NCBI GenBank assembly: GCA_937136395.1
Contig: CAKZOI010000047.1
Span: 62,001-126,000, forward strand
Length of the DNA: 64,000 bases
Reading direction: 5' to 3'
DNA from: an uncultured Opitutia bacterium
GTDB taxonomy: Bacteria > Verrucomicrobiota > Verrucomicrobiia > Opitutales > Coraliomargaritaceae
Shown here one piece after another: positions 3,702 through 22,429 of the stretch. The notes under the pieces were generated by a model. It had not been told where the DNA came from, did no database searches, and worked only from the letters and a program-made list of their open reading frames with translations. Positions within the stretch are counted from its first letter, which is position 1. Each line of letters begins with the position of its first letter. Position numbers and translations under genes: made by a program.

Positions 3702-5885
3702 TCAACCCTTTAGCGCATTTCGCGCGCACTTAAAGACTGCTTTTGCAGTGGTGCGGTTTGCTGGTGGACCAAAGCGGATCGCTTGTAAGTCAGAACGTAT
3801 CGCCCCACCCAGCTCTTTACGTTTAAATTTTCGCAGATAGCGACTGGCTTCTAAGCGAAGTGGATCGAGTGCCTTAGGCCTTCTCAGTAATCTGTAGAAA
3901 ATACCAATCCAATAAAACCGAGCATGCCAAAGCCCCCACATAGCCACGAGCAATGAAACCACCAATGCCATGCCCAGTATACCTTTGCCGCTAAACGGCT
4001 GCTTCCACCAAACTGATAGGCGTGTGCCTAGATCGCTGGCTTTTTCACCTAGTTTTCCTGCGATATCATCAAAGATGTCTTTCATCGTAATCGCCATGTC
4101 TAGCTGATCTCCTTGATCAAAATTAACCACCCGACGATACCACTGAATACGCAAACTGTCAGTCCAAGCTCCCAGCCCTGCTTCAAAATTTTGTGAACTT
4201 GGCATGATCACATCAGGATTCGCTGAGCCACTACCAGGCGTCGGGTCCACTCGTAACCACTCCTCGTTAGCGGCATCATAGATCTCTACCCAAGCATGAG
4301 CATCGTCATTTCGGACCACGAAATACTCCTCGACCATATTCCAGGCGCCGCCCGTAAACCCGACAGCCATACGTGCTGGATAGCCGGCCTCACGCGCAAG
4401 TAGAATAAACGAGCCAGCAAAATATTCGCAATGTCCTGCCTTCGCGGTTCGCAGCCAATTGACGATGGCATCCTCCCCTTCTCCTCCAATATCTGGGTAA
4501 AGTGAGTAACGGTAACTTTTCCATAGATAGCTCGTTAAGAGATTACTATACGAAGAGACATCTAAGGAGGCTGCTTCACCTTTAATCTCCGCATTTAATT
4601 CATTGAGAAACGCGCGGTCTTCATCGCTCATATCCAACTCTAAAGTTGTGAGTGGGTAGGTATACTCTGCGGCTGAAAAAGGCTTGGTTAAACTCGAAAA
4701 AGCCTCGACCTCGTCTGCCATCGCAGGGAAACGATGTGTCCATCGTAGATCCTCAATCTGATAGGAAAACACTCTCTGTTGAACAGACAGCAGGCCCACA
4801 TGATGCGGACCTGGTATAATTGCCAAATTTTGAACCCCCTCAAAACGCATCGAGTGAAACAGTCCCGGAAGCGGCAAAAACTGGCTGGTCCCACCTTCCA
4901 AATAGAAGGTCCATTTTTCGGTAAATCGACGGCTAACCTCTTGGCCCCCATCGAGCAGATCACGGCCCATAAGCTCACGCGTTTTAGGATAGGCACGCAT
5001 GGGGCGTCCTTTTAGCGCATTGGACATGCGGAAATAGCCACGATCATACTTATCAAGTGTTAGAATACGCCAGTAAGGCCTACCTTCGATCGCATCTATT
5101 GAAGGTGCATCGATTCGCATAGCTACGGAGTTGTTCGACTGAATCTCTGACACTTCCCCCAGCTTCACATTTTCACTGAATCCTGCCTTAGCCTCTGACT
5201 TGATTTCTAAATAAGGGATCGCTTGGTGAATGTCCACACGAGGCGTGAGAACAAACAGGACGGTCGATACTGAAACAACAAACAAGAACATAGTCGCACC
5301 CAAAAAGAGCACGCGATAGTCCAGCGACCGAAGCACTCGCCCAATTAAGTGAGATAGAGAAAACGCTTTCCAATCTGCCTGATACTGTCGACTTTCGGGG
5401 CCGCGATCTAAAACGCAGATCAAAAACAGCACCCCCATTGCTACGGGCGTGAACAACAAAATTTGAAACGCAAACAGCAGCGATAAGGTCATCACACCAG
5501 AGATCACGAGGCAAAACAAACAAAGCAAAACGATCTGCAAATCCTCCCTGCGACGACGTGGCGCTAAGGCGCGATAGATCAACAACAAGATGACCATCCT
5601 TAAGAGCGGTGGCATAAACTCAGGCAGGTGCAGGATAAAATCGGCGCCGATAATGAAGAGTAAAAAAAATCCAACCGATCGCCAAAAAAAGGTGGGTATA
5701 CGTGATACCCAAATCGGCTTAAACAATGCGATAACTAGTGCCAGGCCGCCGAGCAGGATATGCAACTCCGCCTGCAAGTCTAATGATGACAATGCCCAGA
5801 ATGCTAACAGGCACAAGAGTGTGCCAGTTAGCCATTTCAACTCAAAGAGTTCCTCAGTCGTGAGTTTGACCAGCTTTTTTCTCAT
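3702..5885 (-). CDS. TgpA-like membrane transglutaminase (DUF3488/DUF4129)
   Basis: A large membrane protein with several transmembrane helices in the first 215 residues, an extracytoplasmic transglutaminase-like domain, one more helix near residue 640 and a short cytoplasmic tail. The catalytic triad is visible as GHCEYFAG (Cys 486), DDAHAWVE (His 530) and RVDPTPG (Asp 547), numbered from the ATG at 5885. A TTG at 5900 could add five residues. It is the last gene of the MoxR-DUF58-transglutaminase operon and overlaps the DUF58 gene. The known relative TgpA of Pseudomonas aeruginosa is essential there, but its substrate is not settled. The physiological substrate here is unknown. Confidence 0.85.
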   Translation of the reverse strand: MRKKLVKLTTEELFELKWLTGTLLCLLAFWALSSLDLQAELHILLGGLALVIALFKPIWVSRIPTFFWRSVGFFLLFIIGADFILHLPEFMPPLLRMVILLLIYRALAPRRRREDLQIVLLCLFCLVISGVMTLSLLFAFQILLFTPVAMGVLFLICVLDRGPESRQYQADWKAFSLSHLIGRVLRSLDYRVLFLGATMFLFVVSVSTVLFVLTPRVDIHQAIPYLEIKSEAKAGFSENVKLGEVSEIQSNNSVAMRIDAPSIDAIEGRPYWRILTLDKYDRGYFRMSNALKGRPMRAYPKTRELMGRDLLDGGQEVSRRFTEKWTFYLEGGTSQFLPLPGLFHSMRFEGVQNLAIIPGPHHVGLLSVQQRVFSYQIEDLRWTHRFPAMADEVEAFSSLTKPFSAAEYTYPLTTLELDMSDEDRAFLNELNAEIKGEAASLDVSSYSNLLTSYLWKSYRYSLYPDIGGEGEDAIVNWLRTAKAGHCEYFAGSFILLAREAGYPARMAVGFTGGAWNMVEEYFVVRNDDAHAWVEIYDAANEEWLRVDPTPGSGSANPDVIMPSSQNFEAGLGAWTDSLRIQWYRRVVNFDQGDQLDMAITMKDIFDDIAGKLGEKASDLGTRLSVWWKQPFSGKGILGMALVVSLLVAMWGLWHARFYWIGIFYRLLRRPKALDPLRLEASRYLRKFKRKELGGAIRSDLQAIRFGPPANRTTAKAVFKCARNALKG

Positions 5886-7005
5886 CGACAAAAATCGCAA
5901 CGTCCCGCTCCCCGGACGGTCTAAAGGTAATAAGATTCTTTAGCGAGTAATCGCTTACCGCTGATTGATTTTCGGTGGGCTTCAAAGTGGCCAAGATATT
6001 AAAAAAGTCATGCAAGTCGCGCATACTCTTAATGATTAATGGTGACTGATCATCGATCCGAATTGAGTCAAGGCGACCACAGTGAAATAACATTTCAGAC
6101 AGTGAGCAAGCTGCCGAACACAGCGTCTCAAAAGTGTCCCTATCCCATACATGCTTGTCCGTGTCTAAACTTAGGTGAAACCCTGCTTCTCCTTCTTGAG
6201 CGAGTTGCCGAATCATCAATTTTTGCAGACGCGCGGTTGCCTTCCAGTGCACCAAGCGAGGTGGATCTCCTGGCACATAAGGGCGCAGATTTAAAAAGTC
6301 GTTCCCTAGGCCAGCATTCCGTTTAGACTGCCCTGACAAAAAGCGCTGGCCGTTGTTCTGCGGATCAAATGTGAATTCTACAGGCTTGGGCCAGACGAGC
6401 ACAGACTCCTTGATCTCATGTCCAAGCACACGCTCTAGAAAGCCAAATGGAAACTGTGAGGTGACCCCCGACAGATAGACATCGCAGCGGCCTCGAAGCT
6501 TTGGCACAAAGGTCCACTCTAAGCGAGCCGTCGACTTTGGCTTTAAGGCGCGCTGCAGATAGAGACGTTCTTCGGTATCCACTGCGGTGCTACCGACACG
6601 AAAACAAATACCCATCGTCGGGAAAATCGTTTTATGATTGGTGACATCAACTTCAGCCATGCCCACTTCCTCGACTTGTAGATGCTGCGGTGCGCAAAGC
6701 GCCCATGTCAAGCGGCGGAAATTGATTAAAGATAAAATACCGCTCAACACTAGACTGCTCAGCAGTAAGGACAAAGTCATAAACAAAATATTACTCGATG
6801 TATTATACGCCGCCGATCCGATCCCCATTGCAATGATGATCAGCATCCAACCGATTGCAGTGAGCGTGGTCTTGCGAAAACGAGCTGGTATCAGCTGCCT
6901 AAAAAATAGAGGGATGAGCCGCTGCTCGCGCCCCTTTACACTTTTAAAAAAGTCTGGATTCGTCCAATCATGCCAGCCCTTTAGCTCTTCATTGAGATTC
7001 GGCAT
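5854..7005 (-). CDS. DUF58 domain protein
   Basis: This 383-residue protein has two hydrophobic helices around residues 45-95, then a DUF58 core. The diagnostic stretch NLRPYVPGDPPRLVHWKATA is followed by a von Willebrand-like segment. DUF58 proteins accompany MoxR AAA+ ATPases and are thought to act as their membrane-bound partners in envelope maturation or stress functions. That is family knowledge; the substrate is not known. The gene starts 10 bases after the MoxR stop and its 3' end overlaps the transglutaminase start, so all three are one transcription unit. Confidence 0.87.
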   Translation of the reverse strand: MPNLNEELKGWHDWTNPDFFKSVKGREQRLIPLFFRQLIPARFRKTTLTAIGWMLIIIAMGIGSAAYNTSSNILFMTLSLLLSSLVLSGILSLINFRRLTWALCAPQHLQVEEVGMAEVDVTNHKTIFPTMGICFRVGSTAVDTEERLYLQRALKPKSTARLEWTFVPKLRGRCDVYLSGVTSQFPFGFLERVLGHEIKESVLVWPKPVEFTFDPQNNGQRFLSGQSKRNAGLGNDFLNLRPYVPGDPPRLVHWKATARLQKLMIRQLAQEGEAGFHLSLDTDKHVWDRDTFETLCSAACSLSEMLFHCGRLDSIRIDDQSPLIIKSMRDLHDFFNILATLKPTENQSAVSDYSLKNLITFRPSGERDVAIFVDEKKAGQTHD

Positions 7006-16763: not shown

Positions 16764-17042
16764 ATGATTCAATCGTTTGCAGATGCTGATACAAAGCAAC
16801 TCTTCGAAGAGGAAAGGAATCGTCGTTTCTCATCAATTCAGCGTGTCGCACTGCGAAAGCTGATCCAAATCAATCGTGCCGGAAAACTGGAAGATCTGAT
16901 GGTTCCACCCGGTAATCGACTTGAGGCACTAAAAGGCAATTTGTTCGGTTACCATTCGATTCGAATTAACAATCAATGGCGAGTCGTCTTCCGCTGGACA
17001 GATCAAGGCCCTGAAGACGTGCAGATCATTGACTACCATTGA
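16764..17042 (+). CDS. higB: HigB-type (RelE superfamily) toxin
   Basis: A 92-residue protein with the HigB layout: [15 protein letters not shown], then [15 protein letters not shown], then [15 protein letters not shown] and a final VQIIDYH. HigB toxins are ribosome-dependent mRNA interferases held inactive by HigA. The toxin-first order with the antitoxin directly downstream is characteristic. The ATG at 16764 is preceded by AT-rich sequence. The pair lies between two direct repeats and near a tRNA gene, as expected for a mobile or recently gained cassette. Confidence 0.9.
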
Positions 17043-17073
17043 CAATGCCCTCGTAACGTTACACGTTATACCC

Positions 17074-17376
17074 ATGAACCCACCGATCACACCTGGCGAA
17101 ATACTTCTAGAGGAATACCTAGTGCCGATGAACATCTCTCAAAACGCAATGGCACGAGCCATCGGCGTGGCACCGCGGGCAATCAATGAGATAGTGCATG
17201 GGAAACGCTCGATCACTCCACAGATGTCGATCCGTTTTGGAGCTTTCTTTAGACAATCTGAAGACTTTTGGCATGGTATTCAGGTGGAGTGCGACTTCCG
17301 CGCATTACGTAAGGACAAGCTGAAACTTACCAAATATGTGCAAACCGCTGAATCATTGATCGCCTGTGAAGATTGA
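17074..17376 (+). CDS. higA: HigA-type antitoxin
   Basis: A 100-residue HTH_XRE protein: [20 protein letters not shown], then an HTH around [20 protein letters not shown] and [13 protein letters not shown], the standard HigA signature. HigA neutralises HigB and usually represses its own operon through this HTH. I chose the ATG at 17074 because it gives the family's standard N-terminus; a TTG at 17029 would overlap higB and add 15 unrelated residues. It is 31 bases downstream of the higB stop. Confidence 0.9.
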
Positions 17377-17480: not shown

Positions 17481-17555
<75 letters not shown>

Positions 17556-17705: not shown

Positions 17706-17724
17706 GAAAATGAGATTCAGTATC
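17706..17724 (+). promoter_or_regulatory. Predicted Fur box 1 upstream of the porin operon
   Basis: The 19 bases GAAAATGAGATTCAGTATC agree with the classical Fur consensus GATAATGATAATCATTATC at 15 of 19 positions by direct comparison. They lie 59 bases before the porin ATG. This suggests iron-dependent repression of the downstream module. A Fur-family relative (Zur, PerR) cannot be excluded from sequence alone. Confidence 0.6.
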
Positions 17725-17749
17725 AAATAATGCTTGACGCGCCTTGACT

Positions 17750-17768
17750 GCTATTGAGACTCAATCTC
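17750..17768 (+). promoter_or_regulatory. Predicted Fur box 2 (weaker)
   Basis: A second Fur-like site, matching the same consensus at 13 of 19 positions, sits 14 bases before the porin ATG. It contains the perfect palindrome ATTGAGACTCAAT. Tandem sites are usual at strongly Fur-regulated promoters. The sequence between the boxes carries TTGA tetramers in 10-base phase (17734, 17744, 17754). Confidence 0.45.
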
Positions 17769-17782
17769 CTTGACTAATAGAA

Positions 17783-19138
17783 ATGATTATGATTCTGCCT
17801 AAAAAGCTACTCACGGTATTCGCACTCAGCGGAGCTACTTTACTATCAATGGTTTCGGCGGAAACCACGCCACAGTCTATGCCTTCGGCTGAGGAAATGT
17901 GGCGAATCATCCAAGCGCAGCAAAAACAGATTGATACGCTCTCTGCCCTCGTGAAATCCAACCAGCAGGAAGTCAGTGCAGCTAAAACTGAAGTCGCCAA
18001 TGCAAGAGCTGTCGCTGCAAATGCACAAACGCAGGCTAGCCAGACCAGCAAGCAATTACAAAGCACCCAGGCACAACTTGAGGCAACGACGCTGGCCGTA
18101 GAGGAAGGTTCCAGTGGCTTCGGTAGCTCGGGTTGGTGGGAACGCACCTCGATCGGTGGCTACGGTGAATTACATGCGAACTTTTATGACGATTCGGAAT
18201 ACAACCAAATCGACTTCCACCGCTTTGTATTATTCTTTAATCATGACTTTAATGATTGGATCTCACTCTACTCTGAACTTGAGATTGAGCACACATCGAT
18301 CAGTGACACTGGCGACGGCAGCAGCAGCGGTGAAGTCAAGCTAGAACAAGCCTTCGTGCGACTGAATTGGACAGAGAACTCCAGCACCGATGTAGGTCTA
18401 ATTTTGATGCCAGTAGGTATCTTGAATGATTACCACGAGCCCACCACTTTCTATGGAGTTGAACGTAACGACATCGAAGCAAATATCATTCCGACGACTT
18501 GGTTTGAAGGGGGTGTTCGCCACACGCATCGCTTCGGAAACGGCCTCTCTTTTGAAGGTGGCATTACCTCAGGGTTGAGCGTGAGTGATGATTACAATAT
18601 CCGCTCTGGTCGAAATGACGTGGCTAAGGCTCCTGCTGAGGAACCAGCATTTGTTTCCCGCGTTCGTTTCACGGGTATTGCAGGGCTAGAGCTTGGAGCC
18701 TCAGTATTTTACCAAGATGACCTTGCGCAAGAGGATCGCGACATCGACTTCTCTGGCTTACTCACAAGTGCACACCTCGTTTACAATTATGAGGGCTTCA
18801 CACTGAAGGCACTCTACGCACAATGGAACTTAAATGGCGATGTAGTGCCAAGTGATGCAGAAAGTCAGTATGGCTGGTATATCGAGCCATCGTATCGCTG
18901 GAATATAAGTGAGCGCTACGGTGATCTAGGCGTCTTTGCGCGCTACAGTCAGATGGAATATTACAAGAGCGGACTACTCGAAAACGGCATCATCGCACTC
19001 GGTGTGAACTGGTGGCCGACCAACAATGTCGTGTTCAAGGTGGATTTTGAAAACTATGATAGCGGCGCAAATAATGGTGCCTCTAAAGGCAACGAGAGTG
19101 ACCACTCCGTCAACTTCGGCGTGGGTTACCAATTTTAA
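17783..19138 (+). CDS. Outer-membrane porin with N-terminal coiled coil
   Basis: A 451-residue protein. A signal peptide ends near VSAETT, a coiled-coil stretch spans about residues 35-105 (KQIDTLSALVKSNQQEV and Ala/Gln-rich repeats), and a beta-barrel follows with many alternating aromatic strands (GGYGELHANF, FHRFVLFFNHDF). It ends in an aromatic C-terminal strand, VNFGVGYQF, the usual barrel assembly signal. The layout is that of OprO/OprP- or SLH-like porins with an N-terminal periplasmic anchor. Substrate is unknown. Tandem Fur-like sites upstream and the flavin genes downstream suggest a role in metal-related transport. ATG at 17783 or 17789. Confidence 0.8.
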   Translation: MIMILPKKLLTVFALSGATLLSMVSAETTPQSMPSAEEMWRIIQAQQKQIDTLSALVKSNQQEVSAAKTEVANARAVAANAQTQASQTSKQLQSTQAQLEATTLAVEEGSSGFGSSGWWERTSIGGYGELHANFYDDSEYNQIDFHRFVLFFNHDFNDWISLYSELEIEHTSISDTGDGSSSGEVKLEQAFVRLNWTENSSTDVGLILMPVGILNDYHEPTTFYGVERNDIEANIIPTTWFEGGVRHTHRFGNGLSFEGGITSGLSVSDDYNIRSGRNDVAKAPAEEPAFVSRVRFTGIAGLELGASVFYQDDLAQEDRDIDFSGLLTSAHLVYNYEGFTLKALYAQWNLNGDVVPSDAESQYGWYIEPSYRWNISERYGDLGVFARYSQMEYYKSGLLENGIIALGVNWWPTNNVVFKVDFENYDSGANNGASKGNESDHSVNFGVGYQF

Positions 19139-19212
19139 ATTTAGTCCACCGGTTGTAGGGCTTGGGCTTGCTAGATTTGCGTTTCTAGACAGCTTGAGTC
19201 CTACTCAATCGA

Positions 19213-19743
19213 ATGTTTAGCCAACCAATAGCTTCAGCTTTATTGCTCGCCTGTATTTTCATACAGGCGAGCTTTTCGCTGCACGCCAAAGAAGACATTT
19301 ACCTCGAACCTGATCGTTTCATCGAGCAAAGCTTCGATGAATTGCCCGAACAAAAAGTCCTCTGGCTCACCAAAGATGCTAAAGCTGAAATCAAGAAGGT
19401 TTTTGGGCGTGAGTATCCAGGGCTGCGTATCCGTTACTGGCAACTTGGCAAACGCACTGCATGGATCTTGGAAGAAATCGGTAAAGTGAAGCCAATCACG
19501 ACTGGTTTTGTCATCGAGGAAAACAGAATGCTACAAATGCAAGTGCTCATCTACAGAGAAAGCCACGGCTGGGAAGTTCGCTACCCTTTCTTTACCGATC
19601 AGTTTGTCGGCTTGGAGCGAAATGAGTCCAACAAGCTGAACAAGAAAATCGACGGCATCAGCGGCGCCACCCTATCGGTAAATGCCTTGACTCGTCTTTC
19701 AAAGCTAGCGCTCTTTCTCCATAAGGAGGTCACTCAACTATGA
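19213..19743 (+). CDS. Exported FMN-binding domain protein
   Basis: A 176-residue protein with a signal peptide (about 24 residues, ending LHAKE) and an FMN-binding domain. Near the C-terminus lies DGISGATLS (Thr 153 in SGATLS), the site where ApbE attaches FMN through a phosphoester bond in NqrC/RnfG-type proteins. The encoded ApbE two genes downstream supports covalent flavinylation. The stop overlaps the ATG of the PepSY gene (ATGA). The protein should act outside the cytoplasm as a one-electron carrier or reductase; the electron acceptor is not known. Confidence 0.85.
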   Translation: MFSQPIASALLLACIFIQASFSLHAKEDIYLEPDRFIEQSFDELPEQKVLWLTKDAKAEIKKVFGREYPGLRIRYWQLGKRTAWILEEIGKVKPITTGFVIEENRMLQMQVLIYRESHGWEVRYPFFTDQFVGLERNESNKLNKKIDGISGATLSVNALTRLSKLALFLHKEVTQL

Positions 19744-20510
19744 GCCTACAACTCCCTCGAAAACGCACTATCCTTGCTTGGCACAGATGGCTAGGTGTCG
19801 CCTCTGCGCTTTTCTTGGTGGTGCTCTCTATCACGGGGCTTTTGCTCAATCATACCGAGCGACTAGGGCTCAACCAAATTACGATCCACAACGGATTCAT
19901 CCTCGACCGCTATGGGATGGCCGGTGGCAATGAAATTTCCGCCTTTCGTATTCATGAGTCCAATACAATTGCACACCTTGACGGGCAGCTCTTTTACAAT
20001 CGCACAGCACTCAGCGCTGGGCATCCACCACTCGGTATTCTTGAAGGCGACCCAATCACTGTAATCGCGACCAAGGATGAACTACTCTACTTGAGCGCAG
20101 AAGGTGAATTGATCGAAAAAATTAATAGCACACAATTACCCTATTCAGCACTGCATGCGGTTGGTATAAGCATCGACAATCAACCTGTTCTCATCACCGA
20201 CGAAGGGCAATACACCCCCGATTCTGATTGGCTAGAATTTGACCGCTATCAAGCAGCTTACAGTGTCGAACCACTCCCTAAGGTAGAGATCGATGAAGCC
20301 ACCGAGCTCGCGATTCTTGAGCAGTTTCAAGGTGGCGGCGTCACGCTCTATCGCGTCCTGCTGGACTTACATTCTGGTCGCCTCTTTGGATGGGGTGGCC
20401 GCACCTTGATGGACCTAAGTGCAATCGCCATAATTCTCCTAGTCACCTCAGGGCTTATGGGCTGGTTGCGCAAGTCTCGCCGCCAACAAACTGAAAAACA
20501 AGCTCCCTAA
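19740..20510 (+). CDS. PepSY-associated transmembrane protein
   Basis: A 256-residue membrane protein with one helix near the N-terminus (LAWHRWLGVASALFLVVLSI, followed by GLLLNHTERLG), a large extracytoplasmic loop, and a second helix after DLHSGRLFGWGGRTLMDLSA. The conserved His residues in HRWLG, NHT and LHSG are positions that bind heme or metal in PepSY-TM ferric reductase-like proteins. It has two helices where PiuB/FoxB-type proteins have four. It lies between the FMN-binding gene and apbE and overlaps the former, so it is the likely membrane electron conduit to the flavoprotein. Confidence 0.8.
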   Translation: MSLQLPRKRTILAWHRWLGVASALFLVVLSITGLLLNHTERLGLNQITIHNGFILDRYGMAGGNEISAFRIHESNTIAHLDGQLFYNRTALSAGHPPLGILEGDPITVIATKDELLYLSAEGELIEKINSTQLPYSALHAVGISIDNQPVLITDEGQYTPDSDWLEFDRYQAAYSVEPLPKVEIDEATELAILEQFQGGGVTLYRVLLDLHSGRLFGWGGRTLMDLSAIAIILLVTSGLMGWLRKSRRQQTEKQAP

Positions 20511-20515
20511 GTAAC

Positions 20516-21466
20516 ATGCAGCGCCGACGTTTCATCAAAATTTTAGCCAGCAGCGCAGCCAGCTTACCGCTGAGTGCCGCACATCTAACAGATGCGCCGC
20601 TGCATCCAGTAAAGTGGCACGGATATACACTTGGCGCTAAAGGAAGCATTACACTCTTTCAAAATGACCGCTCACAAGCGAGTGCTAGTTTGCACAAATG
20701 CTTTGCTGAAATTCAACGTTTAGAAAAGATCTTCAGCCTTTACGATCATCACTCGGAACTCTCTCAGCTCAACCGCACAGGCGCTTTAGCCAATCCATCC
20801 AAAGAATGGACGCCACTTCTACAGGCAGTAAACCATGCACATGCTATGACATGTGGTCTCTTCGACCCAACGATTCAGCCACTATGGAAAGTATACGAAA
20901 CACATTTTTCGAATCAGCCTGACGATGAAATACCTGCTCACAGGGTCCAACAAGCCCTTGAAAAAACTGGTTGGGGCTTTGTAGATTTCAATGCGTCGCA
21001 GATCAAATTTACCAAGCCAGAGATGCAGCTCACCCTGAATGGTATTGCTCAAGGCTTTATTACCGATCGCGTGACAAAGCTGTTACGTAATGCAGGTTAC
21101 CTGCATGTTCTCGTTGAACTTGGCGAGACCTCTGCCATTGGCAAACACCCTCAAAATCGCCCTTGGAACGTAGGCATAAAAGATGCCAACAATACCGAGC
21201 AGATCCATGAAGTCGTCGAATTGACGGACCAAGCGCTCGCCACCAGTGGCAGTTACGGCAGCACGTTCACACCGGAGGGTGACTATCACCATTTGATCCA
21301 CCCAAAATCTGGACGTCCGCAAACACGATGGAAAAGCTTAAGCGTGATCGCGCCGACCGCTACGGAAGCAGATGCCCTTTCTACCGGTCTATCCTTCGCC
21401 TCTGAACAGGAAATTAACACGCTTCTCAGGAAACGATCTGACCTACAAATCTACCGCCAAGTCTAA
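20516..21466 (+). CDS. apbE: FAD:protein FMN transferase (ApbE)
   Basis: ApbE uses FAD and Mg2+ to attach FMN to Thr in SGAT motifs of exported proteins. The 316-residue protein begins with a twin-arginine-like signal (QRRRFIKILASSAASLPLSA) and contains the ApbE landmarks: EIQRLEKIFSLYDHHSELSQLN, the flavin-binding GIAQGFITDR, DQALATSGSYGS, then HHLIHPKSGRPQ and TEADALSTGLSF. It is the last gene of the module, five bases after the PepSY gene. Its substrate is almost certainly the FMN-binding protein at 19213-19743. Confidence 0.92.
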   Translation: MQRRRFIKILASSAASLPLSAAHLTDAPLHPVKWHGYTLGAKGSITLFQNDRSQASASLHKCFAEIQRLEKIFSLYDHHSELSQLNRTGALANPSKEWTPLLQAVNHAHAMTCGLFDPTIQPLWKVYETHFSNQPDDEIPAHRVQQALEKTGWGFVDFNASQIKFTKPEMQLTLNGIAQGFITDRVTKLLRNAGYLHVLVELGETSAIGKHPQNRPWNVGIKDANNTEQIHEVVELTDQALATSGSYGSTFTPEGDYHHLIHPKSGRPQTRWKSLSVIAPTATEADALSTGLSFASEQEINTLLRKRSDLQIYRQV

Positions 21467-21656
21467 GTCGACAGACCACGAATCAGAATTCAATAGATCG
21501 AAATAGCTGACATTCGACTGGTAATCCAGTTGCCTATGAATCCCCAAGACTTCTTCAAAAAAAGGTTCATAAATCACCTTCAGTAATTTGCATATTCACG
21601 AAACTCTCGTTCATCAAATGTCGATATATTCGTTCACACCAAGATAAATAACTACC

Positions 21657-22049
21657 ATGAAAAAAAGACTCCTTATTTCCTTCCTGATGATCACTGCTTC
21701 ACTTGCATATGCAGGTGCTGGATGCGGCGATTCATGCGACAAAGATTCAAAAGACGAAAAAGCTGGCGCGTTCGAAACATCGGTTATCGTAGCCGGTGAT
21801 AATTGCGGCAAGAACTGCGGCGGTGACAAGACCACTGCTACTGAAGAAGCGGGCCACACAGCAATCGACACACAATTGGCTGGAGAGAACTGCGGCAAAA
21901 ATTGCGGTGACAAGAAAGCTGAGACTGAAACATCAGACTTCCAGTCGTCACACACCGAGCTTGCAGGAAACTGCGGTGCAGGATGCGACAAGGATAAAGA
22001 AGCTGGTGAAGAATCTGATTTCTCTGCCAGTGACTACGCAGTTGCCTAA
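21657..22049 (+). CDS. Secreted Cys-rich repeat protein (CGxxC repeats)
   Basis: I do not recognise this family. The 130-residue protein has a clear signal peptide (MKKRLLISFL..., cleavage likely after AYA near residue 19). Four CGxxC motifs follow at residues 23-27, 50-54, 79-83 and 106-110, spaced 27-29 residues apart. Repeat units read roughly LAG(D/E)NCGKNCG followed by Lys/Asp/Glu-rich, probably disordered spacers. There are no other cysteines. The CxxxC spacing is neither a heme (CxxCH) nor a thioredoxin site; metal or cluster binding is possible. It lies 190 bases after apbE and is followed by a terminator. Confidence 0.7.
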   Translation: MKKRLLISFLMITASLAYAGAGCGDSCDKDSKDEKAGAFETSVIVAGDNCGKNCGGDKTTATEEAGHTAIDTQLAGENCGKNCGDKKAETETSDFQSSHTELAGNCGAGCDKDKEAGEESDFSASDYAVA

Positions 22050-22072
22050 CTAGTCGTCATACGCTACTTTTC

Positions 22073-22109
22073 AAAGTCCTGCTCACGTTATGTGACGGGG
22101 CTTTTTTTT
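22073..22109 (+). terminator. Rho-independent terminator
   Basis: A hairpin with arms AAAGTCCTG-C-TCAC and GTGA-CGGGGCTTT (one bulged C, a few G-T pairs) and loop GTTAT, running into eight T residues. It ends the Cys-rich gene. The next ATG is only six bases further, so the YkgJ-like gene may depend on read-through or a promoter within this stretch. Confidence 0.8.
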
Positions 22110-22114
22110 CATTA

Positions 22115-22429
22115 ATGTGTCTACCTGAATATGATTGTATGAATTGCGGCGCTTGTTGTCGCTGTTTTCCTATATTTGCAAGCCACACAGACGCCATTCG
22201 TGAACCACGCATCCAAAGGGAAACACGACAATTAGAGCTACATTTGCAAAGTCCCGACAAGGCCTATCAACTGTATCCGCTCCCCTTTCACAGTAGCTGT
22301 GCCTTTCTAAAGGAGGATCAACTTTGTCAAATCTACGAAACGCGACCAGAGGTCTGCAGACGTTTTACAGCAGGCAGTGAACAGTGCATTGAAGCGAGGG
22401 CTCGTATGGGAGTTGGCAAAGCTTCCTAA
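22115..22429 (+). CDS. YkgJ-family cysteine cluster protein
   Basis: A 104-residue protein with the YkgJ-type pattern [16 protein letters not shown] at the N-terminus and further cysteines in [21 protein letters not shown] and EQC. The family is described as putative zinc- or iron-chelating; no enzymatic role is established. Its 3' end overlaps the convergent DUF4202 gene. Position just behind a predicted iron-regulated module is suggestive but may be chance. Confidence 0.85.

Follow-up and report, generated by a model that had tools for sequence, protein, structure and literature searches.

A unit of four genes in this Opitutia genome, encoding an OprP-like porin, an exported FMN-binding (FMN_bind) protein, a PepSY_TM membrane protein and a Tat-type ApbE, is kept in the same order across several bacterial families, and the motif in its promoter is also found at feoAB. 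The operon is probably a Fur-repressed assimilatory periplasmic Fe(III) reductase that feeds FeoAB, with the porin admitting the ferric substrate, and the ferric-reductase reading, put forward by the first-pass annotation as the simplest one, stands as the best explanation. The features of the locus, all within the 64,000-nucleotide stretch of DNA that was analyzed (the window), are as follows.

17710..17725, + strand: operator 1, ATGAGATTCAGTATCA, Fur-box-like; conserved 5' of the porin in orthologs, with the same motif at feoAB and TonB-receptor promoters
17734..17739, + strand: TTGACG, candidate -35 box between the two operators, from sequence inspection of ortholog promoters
17754..17769, + strand: operator 2, TTGAGACTCAATCTCC, Fur-box-like; 13 nt from the start codon (ATG) of the porin
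17783..19138, + strand: porin, OprP/OprO-like, with a signal peptide and an N-terminal helix (residues 36-107); directly 5' of FMN_bind in orthologs
19213..19743, + strand: exported FMN_bind protein (Pfam); putative flavinylation site Thr153 in DGISGATLS
19245..19272, + strand: 12-bp perfect hairpin followed by TTTT, within the signal-peptide codons of FMN_bind; candidate leaky terminator/attenuator
19740..20510, + strand: two-helix PepSY_TM protein (Pfam) with conserved His residues and a predicted periplasmic half beta-propeller
20516..21466, + strand: ApbE FMN transferase (Pfam) with the Tat-like N-terminus QRRRFIK
21657..22049: Cys-repeat gene, outside the unit

Gene content and conservation of the unit

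An ORF check of the window confirmed the five ORFs at the coordinates given earlier. Pfam matches assign three of the products, each above the cut-off, to FMN_bind (PF04205; E value of 3e-5), PepSY_TM (PF03929, E value of 2e-17, and PF16357, E value of 1e-10) and ApbE (PF02424; E value of 9e-63), and the porin has a subthreshold match with Porin_O_P (E value of 0.017; 14.9 bits versus a cut-off of 20.9). The FMN_bind and PepSY_TM genes overlap by 4 nt, and gaps of 5 and 74 nt separate PepSY_TM from ApbE and the porin from FMN_bind, respectively. A search for the PepSY_TM protein in 273 genomes of the order identified 17 carriers in six families, which extends the synteny beyond one genome and so clears the first of the refuting conditions named by the first-pass annotation, and the order porin, FMN_bind, PepSY_TM and ApbE is the same around these carriers where the contig reaches far enough, some loci ending at contig edges. 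The exceptions are G084, in which the adjacent ApbE gene is absent, and G231, in which the porin is split over several frames. Because the order is kept across families, the adjacency of the four genes exceeds chance, and the porin, directly 5' of FMN_bind in the orthologs, is a true member, as first suggested. A single-protein search of a public contig collection identified only six close relatives, mostly from Opitutales/Puniceicoccaceae MAGs. Pairwise identities across loci correlate among FMN_bind, PepSY_TM and ApbE (r of 0.93 to 0.95) and at 0.75 to 0.81 with the porin; these values, which still include species relatedness, are consistent with genes travelling together.

Relatives of the FMN_bind protein are present in 28 of 387 genomes across the phylum, and every one examined with a profile E value below 1e-20 has the porin directly upstream. 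PepSY_TM and ApbE adjoin the porin/FMN_bind pair in some of these relatives only, and the most distant pairs have neither PepSY nor ApbE adjoining. On plasmids of Ideonella and Methylocystis, this porin/FMN_bind pair is accompanied by ApbE, as here, whereas the membrane protein is DUF4405/cytochrome b561-like, on the basis of weak Pfam matches, instead of PepSY_TM. This wide pairing of porin and FMN_bind with differing membrane proteins therefore identifies the pair as the core conserved most widely, with an exchangeable cytochrome. Weaker FMN_bind relatives sit in a comparable gene arrangement, together with a DUF6662 protein, ApbE and a DUF4405/b561-like membrane protein. The DUF6662 protein, possibly an outer-membrane barrel, lies beside FMN_bind in L074, L086, L087 and L089, with ApbE adjoining in L074, L087 and L089 and the DUF4405/b561-like protein in L087 and L089. 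In a further locus (G344, L082), a flavodoxin gene (5792-6292) follows shortly after the porin/FMN_bind pair.

Operator sequences and the iron regulon

Comparison of the upstream regions of orthologous porins revealed a palindrome, approximately AWTGAGACTCANTMTCA, in two copies flanking a TTGAC box, which inspection places between the operators in most orthologs. The operator motif was derived from the module promoters alone, blind to other genes. It matches the window twice, versus 0.18 expected by chance, and the whole genome ten times (one palindrome being counted on both strands), versus two for the reversed control. Outside the module, the intergenic matches in this genome lie 16 nt before feoA, in a region shared with a divergent ZnuA-family gene, and 52 nt before a TonB receptor; the remaining ones appear to fall inside genes, or at gene starts, with no link to iron. 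The operator precedes a TonB receptor and also occurs at feoAB in a congeneric genome. G090 carries it before feoA, before a TonB receptor (twice, at similar spacing) and 39 nt before a FUR-family gene, and G224 carries it across the start of a TonB receptor. In all, the operator is found at feoAB in this genome and two relatives and at TonB receptors in four genomes. Several matches in G090 lie inside genes, and single matches are therefore no proof. The 19-bp Escherichia coli Fur consensus has no match in the window with up to 3 mismatches, and outside the order the operator was not detected except in one borderline case. The promoter sequences, which have their operator in common with typical Fur targets, provide good evidence that the module belongs to the iron regulon, and the shared palindrome at the porin, feoAB and TonB-receptor promoters speaks for the Fur-type control predicted by the first-pass annotation. 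In G090, a Fur-like operator lies 5 nt ahead of the called start of a DUF3793 gene (L157 2812-3444), which is a candidate iron-regulon member.

The flavoprotein, ApbE and the membrane protein

The adjacent FMN_bind and ApbE genes and the DGISGATLS sequence bear out the earlier assignment as a flavinylation module. The stretch G151-A152-T153-L154-S155 is invariant in 16 of 16 FMN_bind orthologs, and DGISGAT, which has the form D-x-x-(S/T)-G-A-T, ends at Thr153, so that the residue count agrees with the flavinylation site named in the first-pass annotation. A signal peptide is recognized by inspection in this protein, which is encoded directly beside ApbE, and no other FMN_bind protein was found in the genome; FMN is predicted to be attached covalently to Thr153 by ApbE. 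A search against solved structures with the FMN_bind sequence gave nothing meaningful. The Tat-like motif noted in ApbE is shared by the orthologs whose N-terminus is intact, and the genome encodes TatC. A second, shorter ApbE of the genome (L036 6359-7195, G000:C47) has no FMN_bind gene or other obvious flavinylation partner adjoining.

The AlphaFold2 (AF2) model of the PepSY_TM protein (pLDDT of 89) has two long helices, residues 8 to 37 and 214 to 253, in agreement with the two-helix topology first proposed, and approximately three four-stranded blades between them. A PepSY domain has no Pfam match in this protein, and the model predicts that half a beta-propeller takes the place of the PepSY domains. 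Nearly all of the fold matches of the ectodomain are propellers, with Z scores up to 7.6, and this likeness may reflect a common arrangement only. His15 and His211 are invariant, and His38 is present in at least 90% of the orthologs. The membrane core is related to that of the diheme ferrisiderophore reductase FoxB (7abw; E value of 2e-5), and both the helices and His15/His211 align with it. FoxB shares this core and the conserved histidines, whereas it has four helices, two PepSY domains and no flavinylated partner, in comparison with two helices and no detectable PepSY domain here. A second cytoplasmic-side histidine is absent from the chain, and a heme at that position would therefore need a dimer; the protein probably dimerizes and so completes heme sites involving His15, His38 and His211.

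The porin and the internal hairpin

The porin was modeled with an overall pLDDT of 70, with much of the barrel at 80 to 91. Its best structural matches are OprP (2o4v) and OprO (4rjw), with a Z score of 25.2 and rmsd values of 3.0 to 3.2 over 305 to 309 residues, and other general porins follow closely behind with Z scores of 22 to 24, so that the barrel is OprP-like by a slight lead over other porins. Most of the long N-terminal helix is modeled at low confidence, two orthologs lack this helix, and a search against solved structures with the porin sequence returned nothing. OprP and OprO are phosphate and diphosphate channels with 15% identity, whereas the present porin stands under an iron-type operator and is paired with a flavoprotein. 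Its substrate may be a small, anionic ferric complex, a guess from the OprP fold that is the least certain step of the mechanism. In Parabacteroides, a relative of the porin adjoins genes for imelysin and a diheme oxidoreductase (profile E value of 1e-33 among the ORFs tested). A possible parallel is a locus of Bacteroides thetaiotaomicron that encodes a porin together with a thiol oxidoreductase and an M75 peptidase and is upregulated approximately 60- to 320-fold on iron depletion (PMC10434189). Another relative (L073 6884-8047) is located on a Candidatus Manganitrophus plasmid, where no FMN_bind gene was recognized beside it.

The hairpin at the porin/FMN_bind junction (region 19235-19285) has a folding energy of -25.7 kcal/mol and a z score of -7.3. 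With all junctions in 20 orthologous loci scored by one rule, a hairpin followed by a T run is present at 12 of the 20 porin/FMN_bind junctions, versus 0.85 expected from shuffles, and at none of the other junctions (0/20, 0/18 and 0/15; 0/53 in all). The hairpin sequences vary between genera while the feature stays, sometimes in the intergenic region and sometimes inside the second gene; some orthologs have a stem sequence in common, and the 12 hairpins therefore do not count as fully independent. Most simply, the hairpin is read as a leaky terminator that yields more porin than electron-transfer protein, and a role in mRNA stability would give the same porin excess. The conserved hairpin suggests how the porin and its flavoprotein partner come to be made in unequal amounts. 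Neither the hairpin nor the predicted half propeller of the PepSY_TM protein figures in the first-pass annotation.

Proposed function, known relatives and alternatives

Under iron shortage, repression at the two operators would be lifted. Most transcripts would stop at the hairpin after the porin gene, giving an excess of porin, and read-through would supply the three remaining products, FMN_bind, the membrane cytochrome and ApbE. A ferric complex, small and probably anionic, may enter the periplasm through the OprP-like porin, electrons supplied by the quinol pool or by a cytoplasmic donor may pass through the PepSY_TM protein to the FMN bound to Thr153 by ApbE, and the flavoprotein would reduce Fe(III) to Fe(II), which FeoAB would import. 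Published systems of the same class lend support to the iron link. PepSY-type flavinylation systems are proposed to be iron reductases (PMC8238504), and the Caulobacter PepSY-DUF2271-DUF4198-ApbE genes are Fur regulated and upregulated approximately 12- to 44-fold on iron limitation (PMC3751524), with mutants that are sensitive to EDTA (PMC12004947). This Caulobacter system (CCNA_03155-03159) resembles the present module in its Fur-regulated PepSY, ApbE and flavinylated proteins (PMC12004947, PMC3751524), whereas it has DUF2271/DUF4198 and no porin where the module has FMN_bind and a porin.

A PepSY-like flavinylation system is defined operationally by a PF03929/PF16357 protein clustered with an FMN-binding or ApbE gene (PMC8238504). 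The present locus has PF03929 and PF16357 with PF04205 and PF02424 adjacent, and it is therefore a variant of the published class and not a new kind. The systems described by Meheust et al. (2021, PMC8238504) likewise combine PepSY_TM, ApbE and a flavinylated exported protein, are proposed to reduce iron and are under Fur control in some members. They mostly have DUF2271/DUF4198 and are described with three-helix PepSY proteins (PMC8238504), unlike the present module, in which FMN_bind and a porin are combined with a two-helix protein whose ectodomain is propeller-like. DUF2271, a substrate frequent in the class and outside its definition, is not among the Pfam matches here, the substrate being FMN_bind, and the three transmembrane helices of the class description, also outside the definition, are replaced by two in the AF2 model. 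The main text of PMC8238504 does not mention porins, and such clusters may stand in its supplementary tables; a literature search found no description of a porin in a cluster of this kind. We likewise found no description of the porin as a constant partner, of FMN_bind replacing DUF2271, of the two-helix propeller-like protein or of the internal hairpin.

One point against iron reduction is that the operon has neither an iron transporter nor a ferric-siderophore receptor. The reduction of copper, another metal or an organic acceptor is an unlikely alternative that draws on the PepSY_TM subfamily CrpH, which has links to copper and to heme-copper oxidases (PMC13038864) and shows that PepSY_TM proteins serve copper too, and on the multicopper oxidases adjoining the Methylocystis porin-FMN_bind-ApbE cluster; in the genomes tested, however, the same operator stands at feoAB, at TonB receptors and at a FUR-family gene. 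This sharing with iron-import genes, together with the absence of any multiheme cytochrome or terminal reductase next to the module, speaks against a role in respiration or extracellular electron transfer, in which a soluble acceptor would enter, or electrons leave, through the porin and the chain would serve energy instead of nutrition. This reading is improbable, although flavinylated systems are often respiratory (PMC8238504) and the pair is joined in other lineages by a DUF4405-like cytochrome and in Ideonella also by a diheme peroxidase. The regulator itself is presumably Fur and not another of the four FUR-family proteins encoded in the genome. That number, and the ZnuA-family gene opposite feoA, would suit a different family member, such as a manganese or zinc sensor, with a response to something other than iron; feoAB, TonB receptors and a FUR-family gene are, however, typical Fur targets, and we consider such a regulator hardly probable.

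Within the ferric-reductase reading, it is conceivable, if doubtful, that the porin and the flavoprotein form one device, in which FMN_bind binds to the porin, at its periplasmic mouth or its coiled stalk, and reduces ferric complexes during their passage, giving a TonB-independent reductive entry in which the terminator keeps the porin in excess. The pair would be the core of such a device because it is more widely kept than the cytochrome or ApbE. If the ferric-reductase reading holds, the known ways in which bacteria assimilate ferric iron would be extended by a TonB-independent one fed by a porin, and in Verrucomicrobiota OprP-like porins would be connected with periplasmic flavin chemistry. 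Porin and flavoprotein are paired deeply, with different membrane cytochromes in different lineages, and this yields a rule that can be tested on unassigned porins and FMN_bind proteins.

Flanking genes

The first-pass annotation placed the Cys-repeat gene immediately after ApbE as a fifth member of the module. It starts 190 nt after ApbE, adjoins the module only in the window's own genus and is present in genomes without the module, and it is rejected from the unit. Its product, which has no Pfam match, occurs in 15 of 43 genomes of the family, and in other genera the gene lies elsewhere, next to unrelated genes (methionine-synthase-like, thioredoxin-like and others in the loci read). Many carriers, in genus g3, have no match to the PepSY_TM gene. 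The YkgJ-like gene after the Cys-repeat gene is likewise excluded, its position being common to the window's own genus only. Together, the two genes (window positions 21657-22429) encode a small exported Cys-repeat (CxxxC) protein and a YkgJ-like CxxCxxCC protein. Just 5' of the module lie a HigB/HigA-type toxin-antitoxin pair (16764-17376) and, next to it, a tRNA-Arg gene (17481-17555).
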